Shown in pieces: positions 2,813 to 48,945 of a stretch of 64,000 bases of DNA; position 1 is the stretch's first letter, and every line of letters begins with the position of its first letter. Origin of the DNA: Planctomycetota bacterium (lineage in GTDB: Bacteria > Planctomycetota > Planctomycetia > Pirellulales > UBA7805). The DNA lies in NCBI GenBank assembly GCA_021413705.1, contig JAIOPX010000194.1, positions 1 through 64,000 on the forward strand. The letters run 5' to 3'. A program made the translations under genes and the position numbers. The notes below the pieces were generated by a model. That model was not told the DNA's origin, made no database searches, and worked only from the letters and a program-made list of their open reading frames with translations.

Positions 2813-3267
2813 TGGCAGAGCAGTCGTTTGAGCTACGGGTGGCCGCGGACCGGCCAGACGAGTACGGCCTGGCGCTGTTTCGCCGGAGGCGTCCCGGCGA
2901 GCGCGCTACCGACCCCGGTTCCGACGGGGATAAGTTGTGGCAACTGGTCGTGCGAGTTTACGGCACTCCGATGAAAGCGGTGCTCGATAAGGTGCTGGCG
3001 ACCCTGAAGCACGCGGGATACCGGCCGTCGGACTTGTCCCGCAGCCGCAAGGTGCCCTTCGTTCTGAAAGAGGCGGCCGGTGTACGCCTTGGCTTGATCT
3101 TCCTGGCCGTCAAACCTCTGCGGAAAACGACTCGCATGTCCGACGTGGCTGAGCACATCGACGGCATGAGCGACGAAGAGGCCTATTACTGGTTCAGCAA
3201 GACCGCCAACGCCGAACACGGGCGGCGGTCCCAGCGAGCGTTACGGATTCTGATGGCAAAGGAGTAG
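2812..3267 (+). CDS. Small DUF499-associated protein, unknown function
   Basis: A 151-residue protein starting at a GTG that overlaps the DUF499 stop codon, so the two are almost certainly translationally coupled. The sequence is soluble-looking, basic in the middle, with a C-terminal block EEAYYWFSKTAN followed by an Arg-rich end (RRSQRALRIL). I do not recognise catalytic motifs. Its position directly after a DUF499 gene suggests a dedicated partner or adaptor. No equivalent is present in the second cluster of this window. Confidence 0.75.
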   Translation: MAEQSFELRVAADRPDEYGLALFRRRRPGERATDPGSDGDKLWQLVVRVYGTPMKAVLDKVLATLKHAGYRPSDLSRSRKVPFVLKEAAGVRLGLIFLAVKPLRKTTRMSDVAEHIDGMSDEEAYYWFSKTANAEHGRRSQRALRILMAKE

Positions 3268-3273
3268 CATCCA

Positions 3274-5010: not shown

Positions 5011-5051
5011 CCGGCGAAAGCAATGCCGTGTGCGAGACTAGAGGCGAGGGA

Positions 5052-8018: not shown

Positions 8019-8090
8019 AAACGACCAGCCACGAACGGGCTGATTCTGGTAGAGCGGACACAATGCTGTAAGTCTTCGCGCGAGGTGCGT

Positions 8091-9173: not shown

Positions 9174-9325
9174 CATTGCATAATCACAACATGGCTTCCA
9201 CGACACGATTTCCAACTAATGGCTTGCTGTGGAGCGAGATGCGGGCTCGCGTGAAGTCCGGCCCGCGGATTCTCCTGGCGGTCTGGGCCCCAGCGCGCCG
9301 CGTGTCAAAAAAGAACAGGTAAATC

Positions 9326-12300: not shown

Positions 12301-13093
12301 GATCGCTGGGGCTCATCTGCTCGATTGGGCCGGGAATGCCGTGGAGGTCACATTCAACCCGGCCTTGTTCGACCAGCATCCCAACACGTTGCAGCTGCTA
12401 TCCTTTGGCTCCGACTTGATGGCCGCGGTATTAGGGGCTGTCGAGCCACCTGAGACGGCCGACGCCGTGGGTTTGCTCGCCCGTTACCGGTTGGAAGGAG
12501 CGATTGCGATCATCGGCTACTTCGGCAGCAACCGTGGTGCCCATGAACCCATCCGATTTATGAGGACGTTGGGGCAGGCCTTGGAGGAGGGGACGTTGGC
12601 ACCGCTGAGTCGGGCGGAGTCCGCAAACGCCTATGGGTTGTTCCTACAGGAAGCCCGGACGGCCCTCGCACACGTACAAAGCGTAGCTGAAGCACGAGCG
12701 TGCGGAGCCCGCGCCGCCATCACCGAGGAGTTGCGACAGATCCTTCGCCAGGCAGCCTATCTGCATTTGGTGCAACTCGGCACAGACGGCTTGTTCGAGC
12801 AGCCCTCAACCGATTTTACCGATCGCGCGATACAGCGGCTTCGAAGCCTGAAGTACCCGTTTGCCGGGGCGCTCAAGCTGGCGGGCGATCGACAGCTGCG
12901 GCTCCGGCCGGACGACCCTCTCTACCTCCGGTTCATGGGCTTCAATCATGCCACATTGGAGCGACGGTTTGAGGCGGCCCGGCAACGGCTGGCCAAGGTG
13001 ATAACGCAGCACATCGGGCTTACGATGGCCACCCCGGGGAAATCCACAACGGATGCTCCCGCGATCGCGGTGGAGTTGCTGGCGTGCCGCTGA
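9326..13093 (+). CDS. SNF2 helicase with N-terminal PLD/HKD nuclease domain (module 1)
   Basis: A 1255-residue fusion. Residues 1-200 form a phospholipase D-like nuclease domain with HPK at 145-147 and GSVNES at 163-168, the HKD signature. A superfamily 2 helicase follows, with Walker A CDEVGLGKT at 309-317 and DEAH at 419-422, then a C-terminal helicase lobe ending in MPWNPMRVEQRIGRIDRIGQ. It starts with GTG at 9326. SNF2 helicases combined with PLD nucleases are known from DISARM-like and other restriction-type clusters. Here it probably provides DNA translocation plus cleavage for the module. The module 2 helicase lacks the PLD domain and carries a DUF3883-like tail instead. Confidence 0.9.
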   Translation: MSLRDLKLRISYGPGDNRLTDFFIPALSESVKYDRAAGYFSSSMLAVAAAGVSRMIGNGGKMRLLCGADLTEDDVQAIRRGEDLGMKLAHAMKKRLFVPENVLVERRLEAMAWMVATGQLEIKVVLPTDSKGAPLAASKSDAYYHPKEGMFIDAEGNQLGFSGSVNESATALEDNYESFMVFNSWDTSPAHLGQIRIKFDRLWEGKEKDWLALPIPEAVRLELLKFRPAQPPLFDPLEPKPEPVVVPEDKPRLGAEQRERIIFQFLRDAPYMINAGRLGLETSTVRPWPHQVHVIDSIVERFPERFMLCDEVGLGKTIEAGSAIRQLVLSGRVKRMLILVPRSVLVQWQEELYEKFVLNIPRYDGHSFWDVFGREIKAPAGPNPWDAHPLLLASSHLAKRRERQEQLAEATGWDLLVVDEAHHARRKDFLNREQYRPNRLLELLNGADGRPGLKDKTKGMMLLTATPMQIDPVEVWDLLRVLGLGGRWGAFEDNFLRYFNELRTPLEDIYWPFMLDMLADYFDTGGQWDEHFVGVAETKLGPVEWDQLKGLPWASNPESIIKQLSPAGQAMLLRMARQHTPLRRYVFRNTRSLLRRYVQAGLLKENVPERDPRPVWIPMTDDEWDLYQRIEQYIRDHYQRYEEERKGLGFIMTVYRRRLTSSFAAIQKSLERRKAFLQDKAGKDQTGGLAEDDTDDTDELESDVSEFLLPGLDSLEMKRLFLDEVDYIEDFLADLRSLGSDSKFEQLTRDLAQLLKQRDSILIFTQYTDTMDYLRDKLRQVYGDQVACYSGRGGERWNGKAWIGTSKETIKTAFRDKQEIKILLCTESASEGLNLQTCGMLINYDMPWNPMRVEQRIGRIDRIGQVYTKVWVRNYFYERTVEADIYQRLDNRIGSFENVVGELQPILARVARTIEAAAMATDERRGKLIAQEVAAINKMVESSEVSGLDLDKLVDDTVSAPKSLPAPVTLTELERTIIGSQALGERFTPHPRIAGAHLLDWAGNAVEVTFNPALFDQHPNTLQLLSFGSDLMAAVLGAVEPPETADAVGLLARYRLEGAIAIIGYFGSNRGAHEPIRFMRTLGQALEEGTLAPLSRAESANAYGLFLQEARTALAHVQSVAEARACGARAAITEELRQILRQAAYLHLVQLGTDGLFEQPSTDFTDRAIQRLRSLKYPFAGALKLAGDRQLRLRPDDPLYLRFMGFNHATLERRFEAARQRLAKVITQHIGLTMATPGKSTTDAPAIAVELLACR

Positions 13094-13119
13094 GGTGAGG
13101 TGGCGCAGCGGAAGGAGAT

Positions 13120-13293
13120 ATGGTGATGAAACTCTGTCTTGCGGACGAATGCGCGGAGCATGCGGTCTTCACGTTACTCGACGGCCTCTCGGCCAAGGCC
13201 GGGGCCCTGAAGAAGCTCCGGGAATCCACCGCGGCCGAATTGGACGCCCTGCTGCCGTCGATTCTTGACCGCGCCTTTTCTGGGAGACTCTGA
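13120..13293 (+). CDS. 57-residue HsdS C-terminal-like coiled-coil peptide
   Basis: A short gene with a strong ribosome binding site (GGAAGGAGAT directly before the ATG). It encodes a peptide whose last 35 residues (LKKLRESTAAELDALL followed by PSILDRAFSGRL) match the classic C-terminal coiled coil of type I restriction specificity subunits. No target-recognition domain is present. The stop overlaps the ATG of the GHKL gene (TGATG), indicating coupling. It may be a relic of an hsdS gene, or a retained docking peptide. The good ribosome site and coupling favour expression. Confidence 0.6.
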   Translation: MVMKLCLADECAEHAVFTLLDGLSAKAGALKKLRESTAAELDALLPSILDRAFSGRL

Positions 13294-15323
13294 TGCTCAA
13301 GAAGCAAGTGAAGACAAGTCGCGAGCATATCCAAAGCCTATCGAAGGCGACGCCCCTTCAGGCCGTCGAGGAGTTGATTTGGAACGGCTTGGATGCTGGC
13401 GGACCGATGGTAGAGGTGCGGCTGGCCTTGGGGGAAATGGGGTCTCTACAAAACATTGAGATCATCGACTCTGGCGCTGGAATTCCGCAGGACCAACTTG
13501 AACAGGCGTTCGGCGAGATCGGCAACTCGCAGAAGGTTAGGCTGAAGGTCAACAAGGACGGCCGATTGTTCCACGGAAGTGAGGGCAAGGGGCGACTAAA
13601 AGCCCTCGCCCTTTGTCGTCAACCGGAGTGGATCATAACGTATCGGAAGAATGGCGAGCTTCGTCGTTATTCGATTAAGATCAATCGGGACGATCCCGAC
13701 TATTTCGAGGTTGGGGAGGAAGAGACCATCGGAACCGGGACCACGGGGACAACGGTTAGCCTTGCCTACGTTGATGAGCAATGCGCCTCGCTACTCGGCG
13801 GCAACGCGAGGGACATACTGACTCGCAGGTTTGCCCTGTATCTCAGTGAGTACCCCGGTACATCAATCACGTACCACGGCCAGGTTCTTAAGGTTGATGA
13901 GCTGATCCAGGTCAAGGCGGACTACCCGCTGCCTGTTGAGGAGGGTCAGCCGCCGGCGACGGTGACAGTGATCGAATGGCGATTCAAGCTGGACAGCCGA
14001 AAGCTCTATCTGTGCAACGAGTCCGGCTTCTCGTTTCACGACATCCCACTGCGGCTGCATGCCCTTGGGGTCGACTACACCGCATATCTGCGTACGCCAA
14101 AGGTCAAAGAATGGGCAGATTCCGGCTTGTTGACGACGACCGAAATGGACCCGTCGGTTCAGAGAGTCCTCGATCTGGCCCGCGAGCAAATTCGAGCGCA
14201 CATTCGCGAACGTTTGGCCTTGACTGCGCAGGATGTCGTCACGGAATGGAAGCAGCAGGAGGTATATCCGTATCGAGATGAAGAGGCGAAGAATCCACTT
14301 GTCGCGGCGGAACAACAGGTCTTTGATATCGTTGCCGTTCATGTGCATGAACTACATCCCACCTTCAAGGTGTCCGACCTCGATAACAAGCGACTGATCC
14401 TGACACTGATTCGGAAGGCGTTGGAAAGTGACCCCTCCGCTCTTACGTCACTGCTAAAGAGCTATGTGGATCTGCCGGAGGAAGAGCAGAAGGAGCTCGC
14501 CGACCTCTTGGAGCGGACGACTCTCAGCTCGTTGATCCGGGCTGGGAAAGTCGTGACCGAGAGGCTCGACACTCTCCAGGCGTTCGAGCACATTCTATTC
14601 AATGACGATTGGAAGGAGCGGCTTCTGGAGCGAACGCAGCTCCACCGGCTCCTGGCGCACGAGTTATGGGTGTTGGACGAGGAGTACTTGGTTGCCACCG
14701 ATGATGAAGGACTTCACGCGGTCTTGAAGAAGCACCTGCACATCCTCGGCCGGCCTGAACTTGCTCCAGATGCGGACGTGAAGATGATTGACGGCAAGGA
14801 TGGCATACCTGATCTCATGCTATGGCATCGGAGGAAGGTGGATCGTTCGCTTTTTGAGCATCTCGTGGTTGAGTTGAAGCGCCCTCGTGACTTCCTCGGT
14901 CAGGACGAAGTGGCGCAGATCGAGAAGTACGCATTCACCGTGATTGAGGATGAGCGATTCATGACTGACAAGGTGCAATGGAAATTCGTGTTGCTTGGGA
15001 ACGACCTTGACAGCTACGCCAGGCAGAGGGCCAGCAGCGATAGCCATCCCGAAGGCTGCATTTATCGCAAAGGCAACGTGTCGATCTGGGTCCGACGTTG
15101 GGCAGATGTTCTCGCAGATGCCAGGGCCCGATATGAATTCTTCAGGGACAAGCTCAACATCGAGGCGTCTTCGGACGTAGGCCTGAAGACGCTGAAGACC
15201 AAGTATGCGCATCTGCTTGCGGGCCGGGGAGTTCGGAAGAAGAAGGATCTCGAAATCATGGCAGCCAAGTCGGCTTCGGCCGAGGATGGGGCAGACCCGG
15301 TCAACAACGATGCTCCTGAATGA
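13293..15323 (+). CDS. GHKL (MORC/Hsp90-like) ATPase with PD-(D/E)xK-like C-terminal domain
   Basis: A 676-residue protein. The N-terminal GHKL ATPase has the N box VEELIWNGLDA (25-35), G1 DSGAGIP (59-65) and the second glycine motif HGSEGKGRLKAL (94-105). The C-terminal third shows IPDLMLWHRR then LVVELKRPRDF, matching the D...ExK pattern of restriction-type nucleases. GHKL-nuclease combinations are known among prokaryotic MORC-like defence proteins. It is coupled to the HsdS-like peptide gene upstream and appears to be the last gene of the module. It may serve as an ATP-gated nuclease. Its counterpart is absent from module 2. Confidence 0.8.
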   Translation: MLKKQVKTSREHIQSLSKATPLQAVEELIWNGLDAGGPMVEVRLALGEMGSLQNIEIIDSGAGIPQDQLEQAFGEIGNSQKVRLKVNKDGRLFHGSEGKGRLKALALCRQPEWIITYRKNGELRRYSIKINRDDPDYFEVGEEETIGTGTTGTTVSLAYVDEQCASLLGGNARDILTRRFALYLSEYPGTSITYHGQVLKVDELIQVKADYPLPVEEGQPPATVTVIEWRFKLDSRKLYLCNESGFSFHDIPLRLHALGVDYTAYLRTPKVKEWADSGLLTTTEMDPSVQRVLDLAREQIRAHIRERLALTAQDVVTEWKQQEVYPYRDEEAKNPLVAAEQQVFDIVAVHVHELHPTFKVSDLDNKRLILTLIRKALESDPSALTSLLKSYVDLPEEEQKELADLLERTTLSSLIRAGKVVTERLDTLQAFEHILFNDDWKERLLERTQLHRLLAHELWVLDEEYLVATDDEGLHAVLKKHLHILGRPELAPDADVKMIDGKDGIPDLMLWHRRKVDRSLFEHLVVELKRPRDFLGQDEVAQIEKYAFTVIEDERFMTDKVQWKFVLLGNDLDSYARQRASSDSHPEGCIYRKGNVSIWVRRWADVLADARARYEFFRDKLNIEASSDVGLKTLKTKYAHLLAGRGVRKKKDLEIMAAKSASAEDGADPVNNDAPE

Positions 15324-15443
15324 CCAAATTGATAGGTTCACCTCACGGGCCACGTCGTGATAAGACGGGGCGATCGCGGCTGGAAATGCTGCCATAGAGC
15401 CTTCTACAGACCCAGGGGTACATACTCGCGAGGAGGTCATCAC

Positions 15444-17018
15444 ATGACCAAGACGCGAACAACCCGCGCAAAGAACAGGAAAGCAGCAGCATCACACGGT
15501 AGCCGCGAAACAATCGCCACGGAGATCCAGTCGATCCCGCTGGCTGAGATCGAACGGGATGCCGCCAACCATCGGCTCGATCAACCCACGGCCAGCCAGA
15601 AGATTCAGGAACTGGCCGAATCCCTTCGCAACGATGGCCAGCAGCAGCCGGTGCAGTTATTCACCTACCCGGATGACCAGCCGCCAGCGCACGGCCGTCG
15701 GTATCTACTGGTCTTCGGATTCCGTCGCTGCGCTGCGGCCGAGTTGAACGGCTGGACCGAGATCGCGGCCGTGGTCAAGCCGATGCCGCTGTTGCCCGAT
15801 GGTTCCATCGATCGGCTGACCATCGAGCGGCTGCGGAGCATCGAAAACCTCCAGCGGGAGAATCTCAACCCCATCGAGGAATGCGTCCTCGTGGAGCAAT
15901 TTGTCAACAACCTTCCGGCCGACCTGGGCGGAACCCCGCCTCGGCAGGATGATGGCCGGCTGACGGAGGAGGCGGTGCGATTCTTGGCCCGAAGCATCGG
16001 CCGCACCGAGGCGTGGGTCCGGGACCGGCTGTATCTGAGCCGGCTATCGCCGGAGCTGAAGCAGAAGGTCATGGAGGGCAAGCTGTTTCTGGTCTACGCA
16101 CGAGAGATCGCCAAGCTGGCCGACCACGCCGAGCAGGAACGCCTGGCCGGAATGTGCGAGGCGAATCCCCTTGACGGGCATTGTTCCACGACGATCCACC
16201 AAGTGCGACGGTATGTGGCCGAGCGACAGAACTCCCTGCGGGCCGTGCCGTGGCAACTCGACAAGGAATTCCCGAAACACAAGGCCGTGTGCGGGCCGTG
16301 CTCCACCTGCTCATTCAATTCCAGCAACGACAAGCAGCTCTTCGAGCATGATGGGAGCCCGGCCCCCGAGACCTATTGCCTTCGCACATCCTGCTTTGAA
16401 GCCAAACAGACGATCACCCAGAAGGCCCTGGAAGCGGCCGTGGCGAAGATCGTGCAGCAGAAGAAACTGCCCACCGAGGGCACGGCCGCGGAAGTGGCTG
16501 CGGAGTTCGTCAAGCCATCCCGTGTCGCCCGTCAGGCCAGGAAGAAGATCGACGGGGCCGAGCCGAAGAAGCCCGCGGTCAAGCCTCAGTATTGGGAAAC
16601 CCCGGAGTACAAGGCCCGGGCCGCCCTCTCCGATGCCGAGCGGACCTGGCGAGAGCAGGTGGCCAAGAGCCTGACGGAGCAGATGCGGAAGCATCCCGGC
16701 CGGCTGACGTCGCTGCTGCTCATCGGCATCACGGGCGCCATCCGCAGCGGCATGAGCGAGAAAGAGGTCGCGAAGCTGAGCGGCCTGTTGAAGTTGACCG
16801 TCAAGCCGACCTGGCAAAACCTCCTGAAGGTCGAGCGGGCGGTGCTGATGCGAAAGCACTTTGACATCGGGGACGTGATCAGCCTGCACGACAGCGAATT
16901 GCTGGTGAACGCCGTGGCCAAGCTCTATTCGGTCGAGGTGCCGTCCTGCCCGAAGCTGGAGGACTATCTCCCTGCCCAGAGCGAGGGACCGGCAGAAGCA
17001 CAGACCGTGGCGGCGTAG
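15444..17018 (+). CDS. ParB/RepB-like nuclease-domain protein with Cys-rich segment
   Basis: A 524-residue protein starting at an ATG with a perfect AGGAGG seven bases upstream. Residues 25-120 resemble the ParB N-terminal domain (IPLAEIERD and YLLVFGFRRCAAA). The block RLRSIENLQRENLNPIEE is the ParB 'ENLQR' signature, followed by a helix-turn-helix region. A central Cys cluster (CGPCSTC, then CLRTSCFEAK) resembles ParB-like proteins of mobile elements rather than chromosomal ParB. No ParA gene is adjacent. It could regulate or partition an element, or belong to the module 1 cluster; a 120-bp gap separates it from the GHKL gene. Confidence 0.8.
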   Translation: MTKTRTTRAKNRKAAASHGSRETIATEIQSIPLAEIERDAANHRLDQPTASQKIQELAESLRNDGQQQPVQLFTYPDDQPPAHGRRYLLVFGFRRCAAAELNGWTEIAAVVKPMPLLPDGSIDRLTIERLRSIENLQRENLNPIEECVLVEQFVNNLPADLGGTPPRQDDGRLTEEAVRFLARSIGRTEAWVRDRLYLSRLSPELKQKVMEGKLFLVYAREIAKLADHAEQERLAGMCEANPLDGHCSTTIHQVRRYVAERQNSLRAVPWQLDKEFPKHKAVCGPCSTCSFNSSNDKQLFEHDGSPAPETYCLRTSCFEAKQTITQKALEAAVAKIVQQKKLPTEGTAAEVAAEFVKPSRVARQARKKIDGAEPKKPAVKPQYWETPEYKARAALSDAERTWREQVAKSLTEQMRKHPGRLTSLLLIGITGAIRSGMSEKEVAKLSGLLKLTVKPTWQNLLKVERAVLMRKHFDIGDVISLHDSELLVNAVAKLYSVEVPSCPKLEDYLPAQSEGPAEAQTVAA

Positions 17019-17607: not shown

Positions 17608-19743
17608 CTACTCCAACTCCAGGCACACCCGAAAACCCGTTGCGCCGGTCGTGAGGACAGGAAACAGCCTCGTGCGGGCGGCTGAACGGCAGTGCCTCGG
17701 CTCGACGACGGAAGAACCGCCTCGCATCACGCGGAGGCTGCCGTTCGCTGGTCCCGTGGGATCGATAGCGGCTCCAGCGGGGTAAGTGTCGTACCAGTCG
17801 GCGCACCACTCCTGCATGTTCCCGTGCATGTCATACAGCCCCCACACATTTGGCCGTTTCTGCCCTATGGGATGGAGCTTGCTGTCGCTGTTTCCCTTGT
17901 GCCACCCCATTTCATCCAAATTTCCTGTGCCACCATACGGGGTTTGCGTACCGGATCGGCACGCGTACTCCCACTCGGCCTCCGTGGGCAGGCGGTATTT
18001 CTTCCCCTCCTTCCGACTCAGTTTGCGGCAGAACTCCATCGCCCCATCCCATGATATCGTATCAATTGGCAAGTCATCCCCCTTCGTGTTGTGGCTGGGG
18101 TTGGAGCCCGTCACCAATTCCCACTGCTTCTGTGTTACCTCGTACGCTCCCATCATAAACGCCTTGGTGATCATCACCTTGTGCTGCGTTTCATCGTCAC
18201 GGCGGTTTTCCTCGTCCGCCGGCGAGCCCATCAGGAATTCGCCCGGCTTGATCTCGATCAGCTTCATGCCGATGGAATTGGTGAGGGTGCGCGGTGGGTA
18301 GTAGTTCGCGATCTTCACCTTGAGTCTAGTCGCCTCTGCGTGCCCTGGCTCGATCGCCAGCAGCTCATCCAGCTTCGCTATCGCCGTCTTGCCGTTTTCC
18401 TTGCTGTCGTTTGCCTTGGCCTGGGCCAGCAGTTCGGCGACTTTCCGTAGGCGTTCCTGCTCGGGCTTGGCAACCAGAGTGCTGGCGCGCCGCAGATGGG
18501 CCTGTTCGATGCTATTGCACTGTTCTAGCAGGCGGTTATACGCGCTGCGAGCTTCGCCGAACGATCCGCGAGCCCAAGACGCTTCGGCCAGCGCTTGCTC
18601 CCGGGCGGCGCCGTCAAGCATAGCGGCGAAGCCCTGACTACGGTCAATGCCTTTAATGCGCTGCCATGCAACGTCGGCCCGATTCTTAAGCGGTAGCACA
18701 TCGCCCAGAACGACGGATCCCTTTGCCGGTACGACGACCTGTTGCGTTTGGTCTGCCGACAGCGAATCGGGTGGGCGCGACATCCAGAGATCACGAGCAA
18801 TCCATGCAGCCCCGAACACAACGGCGGATATGACTGCCGCGTAACCCGCGATTACAACGGGCCTTCGCAATCGCCTCGTGGGCATCGGAGCTTGACGCGG
18901 CATCGCTGTTGGACGCGCTAAGTCAGCCGGCTCCCAATTGTGAGCGTCATCGGCAACGACATCTGCTAGGGCTTGCCGCATTGCCGCCGCATTGCAGAAA
19001 CGATCCGCCCGCTCTGACTCCAGTGCCCGTTCCAGCCAGTCGGCGAAACGCTTCTCCGCTCCCGCTCGTTCAAGCATCTTCGCTACCCCGGCCGGCGTCG
19101 GCCGGGATCCCGTGAACATTTCGCAAGCGATCATCCCCAAAGCGTAGAGATCGTCCCGCTGATCCGGCGCTTCTCCCGCCTGCTGCTGCGGCGACATGTA
19201 CTGCACCGTGCCTGACAGGTTTCGCCCTTGGTCGCTCACCAAACTCCCGGAGAGCACGATGGACTGGGCCACCGCCGCCTGAATCATGCCCAAGCCGAAA
19301 TCAGTTACCATCACTTGGCCGTCGGCCTGGATCAGAAGGTTCTCGGGCTTGAGGTCGCGGTGCATGACGCCCTTGCCGTGTGCGTAGGCCAGCGCATTCA
19401 GCACCTGCACCAAGATACTGACCGTCTCGGCCGTGGCCAGCTTCCCCGTCGCCCGCAGCTTCTGCCGAAGAGTGACCCCCTGGATGTACTGCATCACGTA
19501 GTACGGTGGATCGTGCGTCGTATCCAGGTCAATCGTGCGCACGATGTTTTCGTGTCGCAGCTTGAACTGGATTTGTCCTTCTTGGCGAAGCTGACGCAGG
19601 TACTGGTTATCGGTGGGGATTTTCACCGCGCACTCGACGTGCAACTCCGCGTGCCGTGCCAGCCACACCTCGCCGAAAGTGCCTTGACCCAAAGGCCGCA
19701 CCAGTATCCATGGGCCGATGCTTTGGTTTGGTTCTAATACCAT
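17608..19743 (-). CDS. Membrane Ser/Thr kinase fused to a formylglycine-generating (SUMF) domain
   Basis: A 711-residue protein starting at ATG 19743. The Hanks-type kinase domain spans about residues 12-275: glycine loop GQGTFGEVW, catalytic HRDLKPEN and DFG (VTDFGLG). A single membrane helix lies near 292-318 (VIAGYAAVISAVVFGAAW). A coiled region follows, and residues 489-710 form a SUMF/FGE-sulfatase domain (GEFLMGSP, LPTEAEWEYACRSG, MHGNMQEWCADW, GFRVC). This domain order is common in planctomycetes. The SUMF part is probably outside the membrane. The gene lies between module 1 and the mobile element and reads away from the element. Confidence 0.92.
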   Translation of the reverse strand: MVLEPNQSIGPWILVRPLGQGTFGEVWLARHAELHVECAVKIPTDNQYLRQLRQEGQIQFKLRHENIVRTIDLDTTHDPPYYVMQYIQGVTLRQKLRATGKLATAETVSILVQVLNALAYAHGKGVMHRDLKPENLLIQADGQVMVTDFGLGMIQAAVAQSIVLSGSLVSDQGRNLSGTVQYMSPQQQAGEAPDQRDDLYALGMIACEMFTGSRPTPAGVAKMLERAGAEKRFADWLERALESERADRFCNAAAMRQALADVVADDAHNWEPADLARPTAMPRQAPMPTRRLRRPVVIAGYAAVISAVVFGAAWIARDLWMSRPPDSLSADQTQQVVVPAKGSVVLGDVLPLKNRADVAWQRIKGIDRSQGFAAMLDGAAREQALAEASWARGSFGEARSAYNRLLEQCNSIEQAHLRRASTLVAKPEQERLRKVAELLAQAKANDSKENGKTAIAKLDELLAIEPGHAEATRLKVKIANYYPPRTLTNSIGMKLIEIKPGEFLMGSPADEENRRDDETQHKVMITKAFMMGAYEVTQKQWELVTGSNPSHNTKGDDLPIDTISWDGAMEFCRKLSRKEGKKYRLPTEAEWEYACRSGTQTPYGGTGNLDEMGWHKGNSDSKLHPIGQKRPNVWGLYDMHGNMQEWCADWYDTYPAGAAIDPTGPANGSLRVMRGGSSVVEPRHCRSAARTRLFPVLTTGATGFRVCLELE

Positions 19744-19927
19744 GTGGCATCCCAGATCTTGGGTGCATATCGCCGCCGGACTGACAGGTCCGATTTTCCC
19801 ACGCAGGTGCTGAACTCGCAAGCGGATACTGTTTGATTCGAGGGTTAGGGGCGCGGAGCAGGTGCTAGCCGTCGCACTCGTTTTGATGGATGCCCGCCTC
19901 GCGCCCTCTACAGTGACAACCGGCAGA

Positions 19928-20141: not shown

Positions 20142-20183
20142 CTACGGAGCCGAAGGTTGCAGGTTCGACTCCTGCAAGCTGCA
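20142..20183 (+). repeat. Left attachment site (attL), 3' half of a tRNA gene
   Basis: The 42 bp can be read as anticodon loop CTACGGA (anticodon ACG, as in tRNA-Arg), the 3' strand of the anticodon stem, variable loop, T arm (GCAGG TTCGACT CCTGC) and acceptor 3' strand AAGCTGC plus discriminator A. The sequence upstream does not supply a pairing acceptor 5' strand (GCAGCTT expected) or a matching anticodon stem, so this is not a complete tRNA gene. The perfect copy is at 48418-48459. Confidence 0.8.
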
Positions 20184-20199
20184 TTATCCCAAACCCTTA

Positions 20200-21483
20200 T
20201 CACTCAGGCGGTTGCGCAACAGGGGGAAACACCTTGCGCTTGGGAAAATCGCGCTTTTGGGCCGTTTGGGTCAGTTTTGGGTCAGTCGCCTCCGGCAACT
20301 GCCCGACGAGCTGCGCCTGCACGCTCTTGGCCTTGACCACGTCTTCGTCCTGCACGGACAGGTAGTACATCTGCGTCGTGTGGATGTCGCCGTGCCCGGC
20401 CAGCTTCTGCGTGACATGGATGGGAAGCTGTCTCGCCCAGTTCGTGATGCACGACCTTCGCAGATCGTGGATCGTGAACCGGCGGACGCCGGCCTTGCGG
20501 CACAGCGTCTTGAAGCGCCGAAGCCAGTTGTTCATCAGGTCCGGCTTCCCCTTCTTCCACGTCCCGTCGAGCACGCGCTGGCGGTAGTAATCCCACCGCC
20601 CCTGCTCCATGAAGACGTAGGGGCATTTCTCCGGCGCAACCGCCTGCAACCTGGTGAGCAGGTCGATGGCCTGATCCGGCACCGGGATTGTCCGGCATTC
20701 GTGGTCCTTCGGGGACCACGCCTGCACGAACCCGGCGGCGTCCCTGCGGGTGACATGCAATTCGCCCCTGGCGAAATCGATGTCAGCCCAGGTCAGATTC
20801 ATCGCCTCCCGCAGGCGGAGGCCGGCCGTGTACAGCACCACGACCAGGGTCTGCCAGAGGATTCCCGGCGCCCTGGCCAGGATCTCATGGAACTCCTTGG
20901 GCGAGCAGTACGGAATGCGTTTGCGCCCGACCTTCATCATCGGCAGGCCCACGCACGGGTTGCCGCCCTGCGGCAGGTAACCCCGGCCGATCGCCAGCTC
21001 GAACACGCGACGCAGCGATCGGATCTCCTTGTTGATCGTGGCCGGCGCGTTGCCGGTCTCCGCCGCCCGCTGCGCCCGGAAGGTCTCGATGTCCCTCCGC
21101 GCGATGCGCTTGATCTCACGGTCCCAGCCCACCGCCTGCGCCAGCAGCGACAGCGTCGTCATTTGCATGTGCAGCGTCGAATGAGCCAAGATCGGTTTCA
21201 TCAGCTTCCGGTGCTCGTTGTAGAACTCTCTGAGCGTGATCCGCTTCGGCGGATCGGCGTTTCCCTTTCGGACATCCTGCTGCTTCGTCTCGGCGAAGCG
21301 CTCGGCCTCCTTTCTGGTATCGAAACTCCTGCTGTATCGCCTGCCCTCGGCGCCGAACCACCGCACCGACCAGGCACAGGGCCGCTTGTCGATCCACTGG
21401 CTCCTGGGCAGCGGCCGGCCCGAGCCATCCACCGGAACTGGCCCGTGCCACTTCCGGTACACACCAACTCTTTCAGTCGCCAT
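20200..21483 (-). CDS. Tyrosine site-specific integrase
   Basis: A 427-residue integrase, presumably of the adjacent tRNA-type attachment site 17 bp from its stop codon. Catalytic residues are visible: R223 (GLRLREAMNL), K259, H339 and R342 (HDLRRS), H364 (GHGDIHTT) and the nucleophile Y373. A SAM-like core-binding domain occupies about residues 80-175. I chose ATG 21483 because the upstream extension in the same frame is low-complexity and the N-terminal MATERVGVYRKW block looks like a normal arm-binding start. The C-terminal tail ATDPKLT is also found in a relic at 48.28 kb. Confidence 0.93.
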   Translation of the reverse strand: MATERVGVYRKWHGPVPVDGSGRPLPRSQWIDKRPCAWSVRWFGAEGRRYSRSFDTRKEAERFAETKQQDVRKGNADPPKRITLREFYNEHRKLMKPILAHSTLHMQMTTLSLLAQAVGWDREIKRIARRDIETFRAQRAAETGNAPATINKEIRSLRRVFELAIGRGYLPQGGNPCVGLPMMKVGRKRIPYCSPKEFHEILARAPGILWQTLVVVLYTAGLRLREAMNLTWADIDFARGELHVTRRDAAGFVQAWSPKDHECRTIPVPDQAIDLLTRLQAVAPEKCPYVFMEQGRWDYYRQRVLDGTWKKGKPDLMNNWLRRFKTLCRKAGVRRFTIHDLRRSCITNWARQLPIHVTQKLAGHGDIHTTQMYYLSVQDEDVVKAKSVQAQLVGQLPEATDPKLTQTAQKRDFPKRKVFPPVAQPPE

Positions 21484-21575
21484 GATTGCTCCTTGGCCCG
21501 CACAGGGGCCGAGGCCATCACGGACGACTGACCCAATGGAGGAAGGGTATGTCCGCGACGGTGACGGCGCCAAGC

Positions 21576-21986
21576 TCAAGATTCCGTCTTGGCGGCCAGG
21601 AACCGATCCAACTCCGACTTCCGATACCAGACGTGGCGGGCATACTTGGTCGCCTTGAGGACACCTTTGTCGCGCCAGTAGTTGAGGGTGCGGTTGGCCG
21701 AATCGGGGCCGTGAATCCCCGTCTCGTGGAGACGGAGATACTGGGCCGCCTCGACGGGCGTCATCAGGTCGGGGAAGACCGACGGACGCCCCGGCCACCG
21801 GCTGAGAAGCCGAAGGAGCGGATGCTCGGGCTGTTGAGTGCGTTGAACGACAGTGGTCGTCAGCCCAGATCGGTCGTCGTCCAAATCGATCTGAGGCTCA
21901 TACAGAATGGTGGCGGTCACTAAAACAGCTCCCGGCGCAGCATCTAAAATCCGCGCCGGTACTCTATATATACATGGAAAATTCAC
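21576..21986 (-). CDS. Excisionase/MerR-like helix-turn-helix protein
   Basis: The C-terminal half (PVEAAQYLRLHETG, TLNYWRDKGVLKATK, VWYRKSELDRFLA) matches the helix-turn-helix domain typical of phage excisionases and MerR-like regulators. The gene lies 92 bp upstream of the integrase in the same direction. The start is uncertain: the longest form starts at a GTG at 21986, a shorter form could begin at an internal GTG, and the domain itself starts at MTPVEAAQ. By inference it directs excision or controls integrase expression. Confidence 0.75.
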   Translation of the reverse strand: MNFPCIYRVPARILDAAPGAVLVTATILYEPQIDLDDDRSGLTTTVVQRTQQPEHPLLRLLSRWPGRPSVFPDLMTPVEAAQYLRLHETGIHGPDSANRTLNYWRDKGVLKATKYARHVWYRKSELDRFLAAKTES

Positions 21987-28067: not shown

Positions 28068-28691
28068 CTAAAGCTGTGCCAATTCACACAGCTTTGTGGC
28101 CATAAGCGTGCGGATTATTTCAGTGCGCGGTGCAATAATGGAAAGGGCTTGCTTTGCGCGGCTGGCCGCAACATACAGCCGGTTGCGCAGCACGCTGGCC
28201 GCCTTTCCATCCGCACCCATCCAACGGCCGGTGGAATCCACAAGTACCACGCCATCAAATTCCAATCCCTTGGTCTGCAATACGGAGACGATTTTCGCAC
28301 AATCGAATTGATTAATCTGACCTACGCCATCGTTGCGAGGGACCAGGCGGACTGGCACCAGGTCGCCTTGCAGACGATCCTCAAGATTCTCCCGCAATTG
28401 CTCCAGCGCCGCCGCTGTAAGTGTTGTATCGCCGTCGTCATAGACGATGCCGACAGTTGCACGGGGGATGTTCTCGCGAACGCGGCGAACTTCTGCCGCC
28501 ACAACGGAAGCAATGTCATCACCCTCATTAACGATGTGAACACGTGGTTGCGGGCCAGGTCGCGAACCAGGCTCCCATAACGGGGATTCACCAAAAAGAA
28601 CTTCGTGCAGCTTCTTTATAAAGGCCCCCAACGGCCTAGATTGGCGGAAGTTCACCTTGAACGCGGCATGGCGCATCGACTCAACAACCAC
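28068..28691 (-). pseudogene. HelD/UvrD-like helicase, C-terminal fragment
   Basis: Encodes the last part of a superfamily 1 helicase: FRQSRPLGAFIK, the UvrD-type VLQTKGLEFDGVVLVD and the motif VI region RNRLYVAASRAKQALSII. It is in the same direction as the N-terminal fragment at 28883-30838. The segment between them is non-coding and hairpin-rich. Residues expected after HILI (the DEAQ motif II and motif III) are missing from both pieces, so part of the gene was lost as well as interrupted. Confidence 0.8.
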
Positions 28692-28882: not shown

Positions 28883-30838
28883 TTAAGAGTGACTAATCAA
28901 AATGTGCGTCAGCTTCTCCTTTTCGTGTCCCACGATCCGACGGGGGCTACCGATTGGCAGCATGGCCAGATGGGAGCCTAACCACGCACCGAGCACAGCG
29001 TCCTGTTCCGAGTACGTGGATTGCGTCTGTTCCAACTGCGTCCGCCACGCCTGGTGAGCTTCGGATAACTCTGAGAATGAAAGACCGAGCGCGCTGCCTT
29101 GCTTGAGCAGCGACCCGAATTCCGACAGGGCAGGAATGTGTTTCAGTCGCGTGACACTGGGTACAAGCTTATTGAACAGATCCCGAATGCAGTCTTCAAT
29201 CGCGCGCACGATCAATAGTGGTCCGCGAGCTGCGTTCGACTGCACATCCTGTAGAGAATCGCGACGCGAACTGCACCACTTCGCGATCGCGACCGCAAGA
29301 TTCACGCCGGCCGGAAGCTCGTACTTCGAGTTCGTTCGCGCCGCCTGAACCGATCTGTACCAGTCTCCAACGGTCATCCAGAGCGAATCCGCCAGTTCGG
29401 AAATCTGTCCTCGAAACTGCTGCCAACGACTCGATGGCCGATCCGGCGGTGCAGCGACGAGATTTCTTGCCGCTTCCTGCAAGATGATCAGGGGTAGATG
29501 CGGCGCGTCTTGCGCCTGGTCGCTCGGGCTGGCCACTTCATGATTCTGCGCCGCAAGAGCGGTGGCGACCTCCACAATCTCGAACGGCAGATCCACCACC
29601 CTTTCTGGATAACAAAGCCGAACCGCCGCCGCGGCGATGTCCGCTGGCACATTCTGTCGGAGCGTGTTGGCTTGCTGCTCCCACAGCTCACGAAGATATT
29701 CCCTATAGCCGGCCCAGACGGCATGCAGCACCGCTGGTTCTCCCTTAAGCCGGCTGAGTGATGCACCCTCATCGGCCTCCCGGCCTGCGAGCGTGCGACA
29801 GTCTCTCGCCACTTGCCGGAAGAACTCACGGAATGTACTCACTTTCACGCCTTGCGCATCGACATCCAATAGCGAGGTGATCAGGTCACGCAAGTACGGA
29901 ACCATCTCGGGGTTCAGCACCAGCACACGTGTCCATTCTGCGCGGTATCGATGCTCATCTTTCCCGCGTTGGAGACCGAGGTCATCCCATTGCTGGTCAA
30001 TCAGGCATGGGATGCGCATGATGCCAATACTGGTCTTGCCACTTCCTGGCGGCCCCTCGATCATGACATGTTCGCCAAATGGCAGATGCATCGCCGCCCG
30101 TTGATCCACGGAGGTGAGGGCGATGATCTCACTCAGGCCGAAGTGGTCGGCTGCCTTGTACTGCTCGGGCGGCTTGGCCTCCGCCACAACGCTCGGCACC
30201 GCGGCCGGCTGTGGCGGCTTCTCCGCTTCGACCGGTGTTTTCCGTTCAGGCGCCGCCGGCTTGACCGGTTGCACGAATCGTTGCAGGAATTCCTCGGAAT
30301 CCGCAACGCGCTCCTCACCGGTTGGCAGCAGATACTCGGCGTTACGGAGCCGCGGAAAGACCGCGCCGTATTTGGCCGAGGCGCCGACTCGGTAAATTGT
30401 CTCTTTGACCAACGGTTTAGCGAACGCGTTGCCCTTTGTTATCTTGACAACGATGCGTTCTTCATGACCCAGCGGCTGATCCAACAGCCGGCTCGGGGCG
30501 GGCGATGTCCAGCTACAGATGATCCAATCGGCACCGCTCATGTCAGCCGAGATATTGCGCGCCTTGCTGATATAAAACGTATTCTTCCCGCCGCCGGCGA
30601 TCGAGGTCTCCACCTTTGCGAAGAACGGGTCGTTCTCGACTTGGCGAAGACCCCTATCGCGATCGCGCGCGGCTTCGGCGAGTGTGGCAATGAGTTGAGG
30701 AGACGGATTCATCCCTTGGCCATCGACCGGCAGCAACGCTGGGCTCCGCCGCACCTGATTGGCTTTGGAGATCAGTTCCGATGCCCGAGCGCTATCTCGC
30801 TCAACATGACCGCGCAGTTCAGCCAAATCGACCGCCAT
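28883..30838 (-). pseudogene. HelD/UvrD-like helicase, N-terminal fragment
   Basis: A 651-codon fragment starting at ATG 30838. The first 190 residues (FFAKVETSIAGGGKNTFYIS, DWIICSWTSPAPSRLL) resemble the N-terminal region of HelD-like superfamily 1 helicases. Walker A is IEGPPGSGKTSIG near residue 262. The frame ends at THILISHS, exactly where motif II (DEAQ) should begin. Distal gene of module 2. A fragment matching VVDLPFEIVEVATALAAQNH of this protein recurs as a relic at 47.99-48.09 kb. Confidence 0.85.
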
Positions 30839-30921
30839 AGCCAGCCTCCCGTGCAAAATGACACTTCAGCATGCGCGAACTATCGGCTTGCGTCATGCGC
30901 CATGCCGACGCCCAAACCTGA

Positions 30922-43582: not shown

Positions 43583-43930
43583 CCGAAAGCTTCTGCGGAA
43601 CCCCCCTCGGCATGAAACTCACGTCGTGGAGCGGTTCCTAACCCAACAGCACATCGACCGGCCCCGCGACAGGAAGCTGAGCATCTCAGCAATACGGTCT
43701 GCCGGGGATTGATCCGTTAACGCCTGCCGACGGCGATATCAGTCTACATCTCTACCAGCACGGATGCCACAGAAGAACCAAGCCGCGCCAGTAGGATTTC
43801 GGCCCTGAAGAAGCACGCATCGTACCCACTCTCCAGGTTGAGGCCGGTGCAGATTCTGATAAGATGCGAATCGGCAGAATGCGGGGAAGGGTTCCCTGCG
43901 TGGCATATCTTCTTCTCGGCAGGACAAGCT
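43583..43930. promoter_or_regulatory. Divergent promoter region between module 2 and the large kinase
   Basis: 348 bp between two divergent genes, so it must hold the promoter of the whole module 2 operon and that of the kinase gene. I see no convincing -35/-10 pair or operator palindrome. A weak ribosome site AGGACAAG precedes the kinase ATG. Confidence 0.4.
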
Positions 43931-46900
43931 ATGGCGAGCGCGAACCAACGTATTGGGGAGTACCTTTTGGACGAACGGATCGGCGGCGGCACGTTTGGCG
44001 AAGTTTGGCGCGCGCATCATCATGTTTGGCCGGACCAACTCGTAGCGGTCAAACTGCCGACAGATACCCGTTATGTGAGAAACCTCCAGAAACAAGGCGT
44101 GGCCGTCCACAACATCGTTCATCCGAATGTGGTCCGGGCCATCGGATGCGACCCGTATGCCGATCCACCGTATCTGACGATGGAGTACGTCCCAGGCACC
44201 AGCCTTCGCCCACTCATCACCGACAAGAAGCTCACCATCCCGGAAGCCATCAGGGTCATGGGGCATGTCCTGCATGGCCTGAAGTGTGCTCACGAGCAGG
44301 GCCTTCTTCATCTGGACATTAAGCCTGAGAACATCCTGATCCATGAGCGGGCGTTGCACGATGGTTTTGGCCTGCAAGGGGTCGTCAAGATCACCGACTT
44401 CGGGGTTGGCGCAGCCGCTGCTACCACCGCCGCCGAGTCCATCGTGCTTTCCGATTCACTCAAGAGCAGCGATGGAAAGAACCTGGTCGGTACATTGGCT
44501 TATATCGCGCCCGAACAGCGCGATGGCGGCGCGCCCGACGCGCGCGCGGATTTGTACGCCTGCGGTGTGGTTCTCTTCGAGATGCTGACGGGTGAGCGAC
44601 CAGCGGGAACGGACCTTCCAAGCGACCTGAATCCCGCAGTTCCCAAGTACCTGGATGACGTGTTCCGGCGCGCCTATACCCGGAAGGACAAGCGGTTCGC
44701 GGCCGCAGAGGAGTTTCTGAACGCTCTGGCGAAGGCTGACCGCGCTGCGTGTCCACAAACAACCACATCATCCGCAGAGGTGGCGCCAAATGCCTCGTAT
44801 CCATCGTTGCCGCCAGAGTCAAAGATCGTCCATCTTGGGAACGCCCCTTCCTCACCTGACCACGAGCCGAGCCCCTACCCATCATTGCCGCCGGAATCGA
44901 AAGTAGTCCCCATTGCGGTAACTGATCCAAGTTCGCACGACGCCGCGGAGATTCCTGCGGACCCAGAATTGATTGCGTTTGATGAACTGAACAAGAAGCG
45001 AATCGCCAGCGCCGACGAACTGAAGGCGGCGTTACGCCATCTCTACCATCATCGCCAGCTTTCGGGCGAGGAAATCGACCGAATTCGGAAGCGGCTGACG
45101 ATGTGGGCCGACACGATCCCTCATCACAAGATCACGGACTTCGGGCAGCGCATCAAGATCAACCAAGCAGTTGTCGCGCCGTACTACTGGTTTACGTTGC
45201 GCACTCAATATGAATCGCGAGAGGTCGAACGCAAGGAGGAACCTTACCGGGGCACTCGCCTGCCGGCGCTGGTCACGAACGAGGGTAACATTCGGATTTG
45301 GGCTTACCCGTTCGCGCGGACCGAGGACTTCGCTCCCGCCAGCTATCACTATCGCGTCGAGGATTCGCAGGAAGTCCGTGACTGTCAGCCGTGTAAGACG
45401 ACCGGCAAGGTGACGTGCGCGAATTGTACCGGTCGGGGCCAGGTGGGTTGCCCGACCTGCGGTGCAACAGGCAACGTCCACTGTCCTGCATGCAGAGGCA
45501 GTGGACAAATTCGAAAGGTCAGACAAGAGGTCCGATTCCGCGACAAGACGCAGTATCGGACAGTTACGAAGTATAGCACTCGATGGGACGCGAGCAATCC
45601 ATCTAGAGGGACTTGGCAAGAACCATACACGGTGCAGGAACCATATACAGTCCAAGAACAGTACACCGAGAACGTATACTTTCAGGAGCCTTGCCCCGGT
45701 TGCGCGGGCAGCGGCATTGTTACCTGCCAGAACTGCAATGGCACCCGAGAAGTCTGCTGCGACCCCTGTGTCGGTACTGGCCAAGTGACATGCAAGAACT
45801 GCGACGGGCAGTGCAAAGTAGTGAGCTTTCTGCTGGTGCATGACAAGTTCGAACCCGCAGAAGACACGCGACTTCACCCCAACCCAGCCCTGCAATATGA
45901 TTGCTCGAACCTGCTGGATAGAAAAACAGACTACCGCGCTGTGCTTTGGCTGTCCCGCCCCGCGTTCTCGCCGTCCGTTGCGGAGGTCCTCGAAAACCCA
46001 TCTCTGAAGCCCATCGTCACCGAGGCGATTGAAGCCTCCAAAGCCCCATGCTGCCCAAGCAAGCGAATCATCAAGCAGTCCATCAACATCTGGCGAGCCA
46101 ACGTGGTGTACATTAAGTATACCTACGACAAGACGGAGTACGATCTGTGCTTGTGCGGGAACCAGCTTCAAGTCCTTACTCCAAGCAGCCCGATCAGCCA
46201 GATCACAGAGGGAATTTACGAGCGTGCCGTGAAGCTGATGGATACGGAGGATATCGTCGCTGGATTGAACGAACTGTGGAAGACGCTCGACATGCACCAG
46301 CGGGATGAGCAGGCCCAGGGCACATTGGAGGCTGTTCGGGCGAAACTGTCAGCCGCCTACATGGCCGAGGCAGCGACACTTTCTGCGGAAGGCCTTTGGC
46401 CGGACAGCCTATACTACTCGGATCGTGCCAGGTTGCTGGTGCCGCTCAATCCAGCGGTGGGGAAGCACGAACGGAAGATTAGCAATCGCACTCGCCTTCT
46501 GCACTTGGGCCCACCTATCGGGATTGGCGTCACTGTTGCCCTGATGGCAATGGCTATCCACCAGCCCCTCCTCTTTGTGGCTGCGGGAGCAGCTATGGGC
46601 GCCGGAATTGTCTGCCAGCTTGCACTCGGGATAAGGATTCGTGGAACGGGGCACGCACTGGTGCATTCCTCCGTCCTTTCGAGCCTCTTGGCACTCGGCA
46701 TCGGCCTAGCCATCTGCTCCAGTACCCCAGCAATGGCGCTTATACCTGCCGTCGCGATCGCGATTGCAGACCTAATCCTATTCAAGAGCCTTAAGAGGCA
46801 ATTATTGCGCGCAAGTCCGCCGAAGGCGATCCGCAAAGAGCCACAGGACGCCATTCGGCAAATCTGCAAGTTGCTCGGACAAGACTGGAACAATATCGGG

Positions 46901-47890
46901 CTGAACTATCTGGCATTGCCGTCGCTTTCCTCGTACTCCGGCAAGATACAGGAACTCGTGGGCAGCGCTGACAGGCGTCGCGAGCAGGCCATTGCGACCG
47001 CTCAAGCATACGACGCGAAGATAGACAAAGTGGCGAAGGATCTGGTTGGCAAAATTGTTGCATTGATTCAGGCAATATGCAGCTATCTCGAAGCAATTGG
47101 CGCCGGGCAAGAACCTCCATCCACCGCGCAACAGATCCATGCACTCGCGCAATCGTGCCAGCAGCTAATTGCCTACTTCGAGAAGGTATGTGATTGCATC
47201 CCGAGCACAATTGATGTTGGGGGTGAAAACGGCAGCACAGAACGCATTGCGGTCAACATTGCCCGACCACAAAGTTTGCTCGACTGTATTGACACGGTTA
47301 AGCCTGTTGTGGAAAGCGCGAACAACATCGTGAAGAATCCCATGGGTTTCCATTCGCACATTCGAGAGCGGCTGGCGAAGGCTGGCGCAGCGTTTGAGCA
47401 ATTGGGATTGGCAAAGCAGCGAAAAAAACTGGGCGAGATCCTGATCGACTGGGGAATCATCAAGGCGGCCGAACTTACCAAGGGGCTCGAACACGCCAAG
47501 GTCAATAACCTCCGCATCGGCGAATCCCTCGTCGATCTCCAGCTATGCAGCGAGGCGAACGTCTACAAGGCCCTGGCCGCCCAGCACAACATTGAGTACG
47601 TGGATCTCGACAAGAACTCCATTGCGCCTGCGGCCGTCAATCTCATCCCCGATGACCTGATGCGCAAGCATCTCATCCTGCCCTTGGGCATGGAAAACGG
47701 CCGGCTGCGCGTCTGCATTCACGACCCATACGACTTGGAGACGCTGGAAATTCTCTATCGCCGCGTGAACAAGGAAATCCGTCCGGTACTGGCTTCGAAG
47801 AGCCGGATCAAGAACGTGCTCGATGAACTGTTCAACAGCACGGCCAGCAACACCATCGGCAAGACGATGGACAAGCCATCGACAATCTGA
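43931..47890 (+). CDS. Ser/Thr kinase with DnaJ-type zinc fingers, membrane helices and MshEN domain
   Basis: A 1319-residue protein. Kinase domain 8-270: GGGTFGEVW, catalytic HLDIKPEN and DFG in KITDFGVG. Residues about 484-628 hold repeated CxxCxGxG-like motifs (CPTCGATGNVHCPACRGSG; CPGCAGSGIVTCQNCNG), the DnaJ zinc-finger pattern, split by a Tyr/Gln-rich stretch. About four hydrophobic helices span 855-953. The end (1166-1306: KKLGEILIDWGIIKAAEL, SLVDLQLCSEANVYKALAAQ) is an MshEN domain, which in some ATPases binds c-di-GMP. I know of no standard protein with this order. It may sense infection at the membrane and signal by phosphorylation. Confidence 0.9.
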   Translation: MASANQRIGEYLLDERIGGGTFGEVWRAHHHVWPDQLVAVKLPTDTRYVRNLQKQGVAVHNIVHPNVVRAIGCDPYADPPYLTMEYVPGTSLRPLITDKKLTIPEAIRVMGHVLHGLKCAHEQGLLHLDIKPENILIHERALHDGFGLQGVVKITDFGVGAAAATTAAESIVLSDSLKSSDGKNLVGTLAYIAPEQRDGGAPDARADLYACGVVLFEMLTGERPAGTDLPSDLNPAVPKYLDDVFRRAYTRKDKRFAAAEEFLNALAKADRAACPQTTTSSAEVAPNASYPSLPPESKIVHLGNAPSSPDHEPSPYPSLPPESKVVPIAVTDPSSHDAAEIPADPELIAFDELNKKRIASADELKAALRHLYHHRQLSGEEIDRIRKRLTMWADTIPHHKITDFGQRIKINQAVVAPYYWFTLRTQYESREVERKEEPYRGTRLPALVTNEGNIRIWAYPFARTEDFAPASYHYRVEDSQEVRDCQPCKTTGKVTCANCTGRGQVGCPTCGATGNVHCPACRGSGQIRKVRQEVRFRDKTQYRTVTKYSTRWDASNPSRGTWQEPYTVQEPYTVQEQYTENVYFQEPCPGCAGSGIVTCQNCNGTREVCCDPCVGTGQVTCKNCDGQCKVVSFLLVHDKFEPAEDTRLHPNPALQYDCSNLLDRKTDYRAVLWLSRPAFSPSVAEVLENPSLKPIVTEAIEASKAPCCPSKRIIKQSINIWRANVVYIKYTYDKTEYDLCLCGNQLQVLTPSSPISQITEGIYERAVKLMDTEDIVAGLNELWKTLDMHQRDEQAQGTLEAVRAKLSAAYMAEAATLSAEGLWPDSLYYSDRARLLVPLNPAVGKHERKISNRTRLLHLGPPIGIGVTVALMAMAIHQPLLFVAAGAAMGAGIVCQLALGIRIRGTGHALVHSSVLSSLLALGIGLAICSSTPAMALIPAVAIAIADLILFKSLKRQLLRASPPKAIRKEPQDAIRQICKLLGQDWNNIGLNYLALPSLSSYSGKIQELVGSADRRREQAIATAQAYDAKIDKVAKDLVGKIVALIQAICSYLEAIGAGQEPPSTAQQIHALAQSCQQLIAYFEKVCDCIPSTIDVGGENGSTERIAVNIARPQSLLDCIDTVKPVVESANNIVKNPMGFHSHIRERLAKAGAAFEQLGLAKQRKKLGEILIDWGIIKAAELTKGLEHAKVNNLRIGESLVDLQLCSEANVYKALAAQHNIEYVDLDKNSIAPAAVNLIPDDLMRKHLILPLGMENGRLRVCIHDPYDLETLEILYRRVNKEIRPVLASKSRIKNVLDELFNSTASNTIGKTMDKPSTI

Positions 47891-48417: not shown

Positions 48418-48459
48418 CTACGGAGCCGAAGGTTGCAGGTTCGACTCCTGCAAGCTGCA
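48418..48459 (+). repeat. Right attachment site (attR), 3' half of a tRNA gene
   Basis: Perfect 42-bp copy of the sequence at 20142-20183: anticodon loop CTACGGA to the acceptor end AAGCTGCA. The preceding bases allow only three of five anticodon-stem pairs and no acceptor 5' strand is found, so this copy is not an intact tRNA gene either. It probably marks the right junction of the element. Confidence 0.8.
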
Positions 48460-48618
48460 GTTAGGCGCAATAAGGACTTAGAGAAATTCGCGCCGACCTG
48501 CCGTACCAAATTCCGTACCAAATAAACTCTCCGCCGACCGACAAGGGCGGTGAGGGCAAGCAGCCGACCTTGTGGTCAAGCCCTGGTTCTTTCCAAGGTT
48601 CTTGACTGGAGGTGCGTC

Positions 48619-48945
48619 ATGTCACGCCCCAGCAAGGTTTGGTTTCGCAGGGACACGGGTTGGTGGATGGTCACGTTGGACGGGAAGAAGATCCGTCTGG
48701 CCGAAGGCCGGCCAAACCGGAAACTGGCCGAGCAGAAGTTCCACGAGCTGAAGGCGGTGCAGGCCCGGCCAAGGCCTGGACTTGCCACCTGCGCCGCCCG
48801 CTCGCTCCTCATCGGCAGGCGATACGGCACCCAGTTGGACGCGGAGCCATGCCACGAACCGGAATGCGGCCAATCCAGCCCAGAGATCCGGGGAGTCGTT
48901 GCCCTCTCAAGGCGATTGGCGAGCGCAGTACATGCAGAATCTTAG
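48619..48945 (+). pseudogene. N-terminal remnant of another tyrosine integrase
   Basis: The ATG at 48619 follows CTTGACTGGAGGTGCGTC. The first 50 residues (MSRPSKVWFRRDTGWWMVTL, then KLAEQKFHELKAV) resemble the arm-binding start of phage-type integrases. After that the frame loses any integrase character and ends early. This is a different integrase family member from the intact one. It lies 160 bp outside the right repeat, reading away from it, as if it belonged to a second element integrated at the same site. Confidence 0.55.

Follow-up and report, generated by a model that had tools for sequence, protein, structure and literature searches.

A mobile-element gene joining a Ser/Thr kinase, a CxxC zinc-finger module, four predicted membrane helices and an MshEN domain in a Planctomycetota bacterium

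What does a Ser/Thr kinase do when it shares a chain with zinc-binding-type CxxC repeats, membrane helices and an MshEN domain, and when its gene starts beside a defence operon? We addressed this question for one gene in a 64,000-nucleotide stretch of DNA from a Planctomycetota bacterium (the whole analysed stretch is referred to below as the window). A sequence-only reading of the window had regarded the domain combination as unfamiliar, placed the gene inside a mobile element, and proposed that it is cargo with a role linked to defence. We find good support for the first two proposals and for the status as cargo; a role linked to defence is not supported. The coordinates of all features are collected in Table 1.

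Domain order and genomic setting

The open reading frame starts with an ATG at 43931, and its stop codon ends at 47890. AGGA is found a few bases 5′ of the start, and the codon-position GC content (0.61/0.44/0.68) is coding-like. The N-terminal region matches Pfam Pkinase at residues 13–226 (120 bits versus a cut-off of 31.7) and contains the lysine, catalytic aspartate, asparagine and DFG aspartate of Hanks-type Ser/Thr kinases (K41, D129, N134 and D156, respectively). The position of the alpha-C glutamate, occupied by E in 47 out of 50 aligned kinases, is Q55; kinase activity could therefore be low or absent. The HRD motif reads HLD. A low-complexity linker (residues ~281–360) follows, in which a SYPSLPPESK-like sequence can be read off twice in the protein sequence.

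The next module carries eight CxxC pairs arranged in two runs of four with an exact 11-residue spacing. In shuffled versions of the protein, the number of CxxC pairs averaged 1 and reached 5 at most, and chains at 11-residue spacing were never longer than 1. The earlier description of these repeats as DnaJ-like CxxCxGxG fingers stands for the repeat pattern but not for membership of the DnaJ family: the Pfam DnaJ_CXXCXGXG model (PF00684) scores 12.7 bits versus a cut-off of 32.7, and "DnaJ-like" hence describes a pattern only. Downstream of the module lie the four predicted transmembrane helices. Positive charge is concentrated on both outer flanks of this membrane block and in the loop joining helices 2 and 3. 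By the positive-inside rule the block is predicted to be N-in/C-in, and with this charge distribution both the kinase and the MshEN domain should be cytosolic.

The C-terminal domain was correctly recognized as MshEN. PF05157 matches residues 1219–1305 (74 bits versus a cut-off of 23.1), NCBIfam NF053729, a model of the 53-residue c-di-GMP motif, matches residues 1166–1218 (44.6 bits versus a cut-off of 38), and the tail aligns to the c-di-GMP-bound MshE crystal chain 5htl (E = 2.6e–14). AlphaFold models computed without alignments were unusable (mean pLDDT of 36 for the zinc-finger module and 46 for MshEN). The order of kinase, CxxC fingers, membrane helices and MshEN within one chain is thus borne out by Pfam, NCBIfam, hydrophobicity and the CxxC count.

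Is the combination as unfamiliar as it had seemed? Using the non-kinase part as a query, we found no relative of the whole architecture, and no second chain with the same domain order, in samples of several hundred class and phylum genomes. Short-peptide scans (for P0001 and for a zinc-finger relative) of an 84,980-species contig collection, which pick up close relatives only, yielded no confirmed homologues, and a scan of viral contigs with the kinase alignment yielded 0 confirmed hits. In phage and plasmid records, the matches listed were all kinase-domain-sized. We consider the combination of kinase, zinc-finger module, four transmembrane helices and MshEN in one chain to be real and apparently new.

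The location of the gene inside a mobile element is also confirmed. Perfect 42-bp direct repeats (0 expected by chance) bracket it together with a tyrosine integrase gene, and its status as cargo of a tyrosine-integrase element is therefore well supported. The 42-bp match sits within a 55-bp repeat at 89%, and the distance from repeat to repeat is 28,276 bp. Enclosed are the integrase, a serine recombinase, an Hma-type (DUF499/DUF1156) operon and the kinase-MshEN gene, which is the final cargo gene of the 28.3-kb element. As had been claimed, it is divergent from the defence operon, being encoded on the plus strand with HmaA on the opposite strand 348 bp away. The 42-bp repeat contains a T-arm-like sequence; ARAGORN found no tRNA at the repeat, the Rfam tRNA score was below the cut-off, and a search of the source genome revealed no further copy of the repeat.

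Several other features of the region were recorded. An additional 24-bp repeat (20267 and 48273) lies just inside both element ends. Just outside the right repeat, an ORF at 48550–48945 (+) resembles an integrase N-terminus and is possibly a remnant of an older element (0 Pfam matches). A C-terminal piece of UvrD (28068–28691, –) and, apart from it, a 657-aa ORF that contains a P-loop-like GPPGSGKT motif (28883–30856, –) are probably the two parts of a single UvrD-like helicase gene that a frameshift or stop has interrupted. A second DUF499/DUF1156 module (155–17018, +; module 1 below) contains GmrSD, SIR2-like, SNF2 helicase, HATPase and ParB-like genes, all in one direction. Next to it, just beyond the left repeat of the element, is a gene for a kinase-FGE fusion (17608–19821, –).

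Table 1. Positions of the gene, its parts and the ends of the element in the window
Feature	Position	Strand	Remark
Whole gene: Ser/Thr kinase, CxxC zinc-finger module, 4 TM, unassigned region, MshEN; 1319 aa	43931..47890	+	
Kinase domain, residues 1–280 (Pfam Pkinase 13–226)	43931..44770	+	
Zinc-finger module, residues ~370–800	45038..46330	+	Homologous to kinase-free proteins in other phylum genomes
First CxxC cluster, residues 485–521, four pairs, 11-residue spacing	45383..45493	+	Pairs at 485/496/507/518
Second CxxC cluster, residues 588–624, four pairs, 11-residue spacing	45692..45802	+	Pairs at 588/599/610/621
Four predicted transmembrane helices, residues ~858–953	46502..46789	+	Hydrophobic stretches
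Membrane-to-MshEN region, residues ~954–1165	46790..47425	+	Relatives: none found
MshEN_N, residues 1166–1218, 24+5+24-residue c-di-GMP motif	47426..47584	+	NF053729
MshEN_C, PF05157, residues 1219–1305	47585..47845	+	D1265 = MshE Asp108
Intergenic stretch between the divergent HmaA gene and the kinase gene (348 bp)	43583..43930	.	
Element left end, perfect 42-bp direct repeat, adjoins integrase gene	20142..20183	.	
Element right end, identical 42-bp repeat, ~0.5 kb past the kinase gene	48418..48459	.	
Tyrosine integrase of the element	20200..21798	–	

Relatives of the kinase and of the zinc-finger module

We compared the kinase with the best candidates of each of 398 same-class genomes. At E ≤ 1e–42, the sole match was the kinase-FGE gene inside the window, which is 43–45% identical and belongs to the same subfamily. 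This subfamily, rare in the class, is common elsewhere in the phylum: a two-sequence kinase profile found matches at E ≤ 1e–45 in 50 out of 382 phylum genomes, and, the source genome aside, all but one of these matches came from other classes. Given this distribution, both window kinases, and with them the kinase domain studied here, look foreign to the class of the source genome. The two are not supported as sister genes, their common ancestor in the tree taking in 22 sequences with a support of 0.56. The nearest relatives of the kinase domain, Ser/Thr kinases from other classes of the phylum such as L113, are ~50% identical and resemble it in two loops, the one following VAVK being shortened and the activation loop similarly S-rich. 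However, the zinc-finger module and MshEN, both present in the window protein, were found in none of them. The 40 loci fetched around related-kinase matches contain FGE fusions, tandem kinases and ordinary genes, and a zinc-finger module or MshEN within the kinase chain was seen in 0 of 40.

The zinc-finger module has relatives of its own. Residues ~370–800 align over the full length to proteins L010, L011 and L012 and, more distantly, to L013, L014 and others, and these proteins contain neither a kinase nor MshEN in the same chain. Their common core is 23–30% identical to that of the window protein, with the CxxC pairs aligned; also conserved are an E-x-R segment preceding the cysteines and a tail that follows them. 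In contrast to the shared core, the N-termini vary among the kinase-free proteins, several of which have a C-terminal hydrophobic segment. At one locus (L157, genome G441) a kinase-free zinc-finger gene is immediately preceded by a kinase ORF of the same orientation; this adjacency may be due to chance, since that genome contains very many kinases. Among solved structures, the zinc-finger alignment best matches BSD2, DnaJ and anti-TRAP, all marginally. The module presumably also resembles animal SSUH2 proteins.

The c-di-GMP site and the mode of action

The motif spacing in the MshEN tail is exactly 24+5+24. Compared to the published consensus (PMC5013675), motif 1 departs at K1166 (R expected) and A1189 (Q expected), and motif 2 at I1196, Q1204 (Gly expected), C1206 and V1211, while G1168, R1195, G1197, L1215, Q1218 and D1265 are kept. 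In MshE numbering, R38, Q61, D108 and both RLG glycines are retained, and R9 and Q32 are replaced by K1166 and A1189. Because of K1166, A1189 and Q1204, binding of c-di-GMP could be weak or lost. XpsE, in which binding has been lost, is changed at positions matching G1168, R1195, G1197, L1215 and Q1218, among others, and substitutions of Arg9, Asp12 or Gln32 in MshE shift affinity no more than ~fivefold (PMC5013675). Judging from the contacts kept and changed, the comparison with XpsE and the small published affinity shifts, the tail likely binds c-di-GMP, though perhaps weakly. The source genome has 7 GGDEF matches above the cut-off, which suggests that the organism probably makes the ligand. 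The c-di-GMP sensing proposed earlier is thus plausible as an input.

The explanation that we favor, and to which we would give about an even chance of being right, is that of a kinase anchored in the membrane and carried as accessory cargo, with its activity or its location controlled by c-di-GMP on the tail. The domains, key residues, predicted topology, mobile context and lack of a defence link in relatives are observations, to which ligand binding, kinase activity, domain coupling and a substrate are added as inferences. The four predicted helices would anchor the kinase, with the kinase and MshEN ends both in the cytosol. On binding of c-di-GMP to MshEN, the protein would change its conformation or assemble differently, which would switch the kinase on or off, and the zinc-finger module might recruit a protein partner or substrate, or hold a dimer together.

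We liken the proposed switch to E. coli NfrB, whose N-terminal glycosyltransferase is turned on when c-di-GMP occupies the C-terminal MshEN. The chain of NfrB, too, begins with the catalytic domain, continues with transmembrane helices and ends with MshEN, and c-di-GMP activates the enzyme allosterically (PMC8669469). Residues 1149–1306 of the window protein align to the NfrB model. The window protein differs in that its catalytic domain is a kinase, in its zinc-finger module and in two deviating MshEN contacts. Fusions of MshEN with Ser/Thr kinases were reported by Wang et al. 2016 (PMC5013675) and, like the window protein, contain a kinase and MshEN in one protein, the two parts by which we compared them; in the window protein, the two are separated by a zinc-finger module and a 4-TM block. 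This class of fusions having been noted in 2016, the novelty here apparently lies in the domain order, as judged from the class and phylum samples and the close-relative scans.

The changed MshEN contacts could also be read differently. With K1166 and A1189, the c-di-GMP site is weakened, as would be expected if the protein were a receptor kinase for stress or envelope state, in which the zinc-finger module senses folding or redox and MshEN, its c-di-GMP binding gone, serves for docking or pole-targeting. The recurrence of the zinc-finger module in membrane proteins without MshEN points the same way, as do BSD2 and DnaJ, which are the nearest solved CxxC-repeat proteins, if by marginal sequence matches, and which act in protein folding. 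However, NF053729 scores above its cut-off, and several residues whose loss accompanies the loss of binding in XpsE are kept. We regard this second explanation as possible but unlikely.

It is less probable still that the gene is a decaying or non-functional mosaic, i.e. a pseudokinase built by recombination at the element end and without a selected function. Q55 and HLD would fit such an origin, as would the single occurrence of the gene, its position at the element end and the remnant-like ORFs just past it. However, the frame is open over 1319 codons with a coding-type GC pattern, and the main catalytic residues are intact, as is each of the eight CxxC pairs.

Association with the defence operon

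The direct neighbor of the kinase gene in the element is an Hma/Type-1 BR system (DUF499 ATPase, DUF1156 methylase and SNF2 helicase; PMC12839542). The kinase might be an accessory regulator of this operon that responds at the membrane to envelope damage or to c-di-GMP and, by phosphorylating HmaA/B/C or a regulator, sets the level of defence. Its start, divergent from HmaA and no more than 348 bp away in the same 28-kb element, is consistent with such a role. Kinases are thought to tune other methylation-based defences (PglW, MAD6). Moreover, a kinase of this foreign subfamily stands next to each of the two DUF499/DUF1156 modules in the window, module 1 being followed by the kinase-FGE gene; as both are in one genome, this is an anecdote.

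We therefore looked for association of such kinases with DUF1156, which is present in 74 of 398 same-class genomes. In 60 DUF1156 neighborhoods of the class (1.09 Mb in total; both window kinases as queries, E ≤ 1e–5), a detectable kinase was found in two (L058 and L063), both weak, distant and at the edges of the stretches. The kinase density of the source genome is already ~5 matches per Mb, so that ~5 would be expected versus the 2 observed, and kinases are not in excess near DUF1156. Conversely, homologues of the window DUF499, DUF1156 methylase or helicase (both modules) were found at 0 of the 40 loci of kinase relatives. The co-occurrence on which a linked defence role would depend is thus absent from these loci, where kinase relatives are scattered without DUF499/DUF1156. 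In a close relative of the Hma-type operon (L041, with HmaA and an HD protein), a small MerR/excisionase-like HTH ORF (2536–2760 of L041, +) is located upstream of HmaA, where the window has the kinase; the available 2.8 kb contain no kinase.

Models of known defence kinases gave a similar picture. The window kinase falls far below the NCBIfam cut-offs for MAD6 of MADS (128.4 versus 460) and PglW of BREX type 2 (44.9 versus 990). PADLOC labels it PD-T4-6 (7e–51); however, the PD-T4-6 models match four other, ordinary kinases encoded in this genome better (1e–66 to 1e–96). The label therefore carries no information, and we reject this identity.

On these counts we also reject the kinase as a recurrent component of Hma/DUF499-DUF1156 systems, and a role in regulating the operon appears improbable. 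The kinase travels with the Hma-type operon as a foreign acquisition, not as an operon component. Very improbable, in our view, is the broader idea that the element ties its defence cargo to a second messenger of the host. At the membrane, the kinase would then read c-di-GMP and, perhaps by way of the zinc-finger module, also the state of the envelope or of folding, and would phosphorylate the neighboring Hma-type proteins or a host target; if this were true, defence would vary with the sessile versus motile state and the kinase beside module 1 would provide a second such case.

For kinase-rich genomes the lesson is that a PD-T4-6 label from PADLOC, or mere adjacency, is insufficient to assign a defence role. 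To our knowledge, the class of single proteins leading from c-di-GMP to phosphorylation, predicted from sequence in 2016, has not been studied since. Overall, if the membrane-anchored, c-di-GMP-controlled kinase that we favor is real, it would represent a direct switch from c-di-GMP to protein phosphorylation within one membrane protein.
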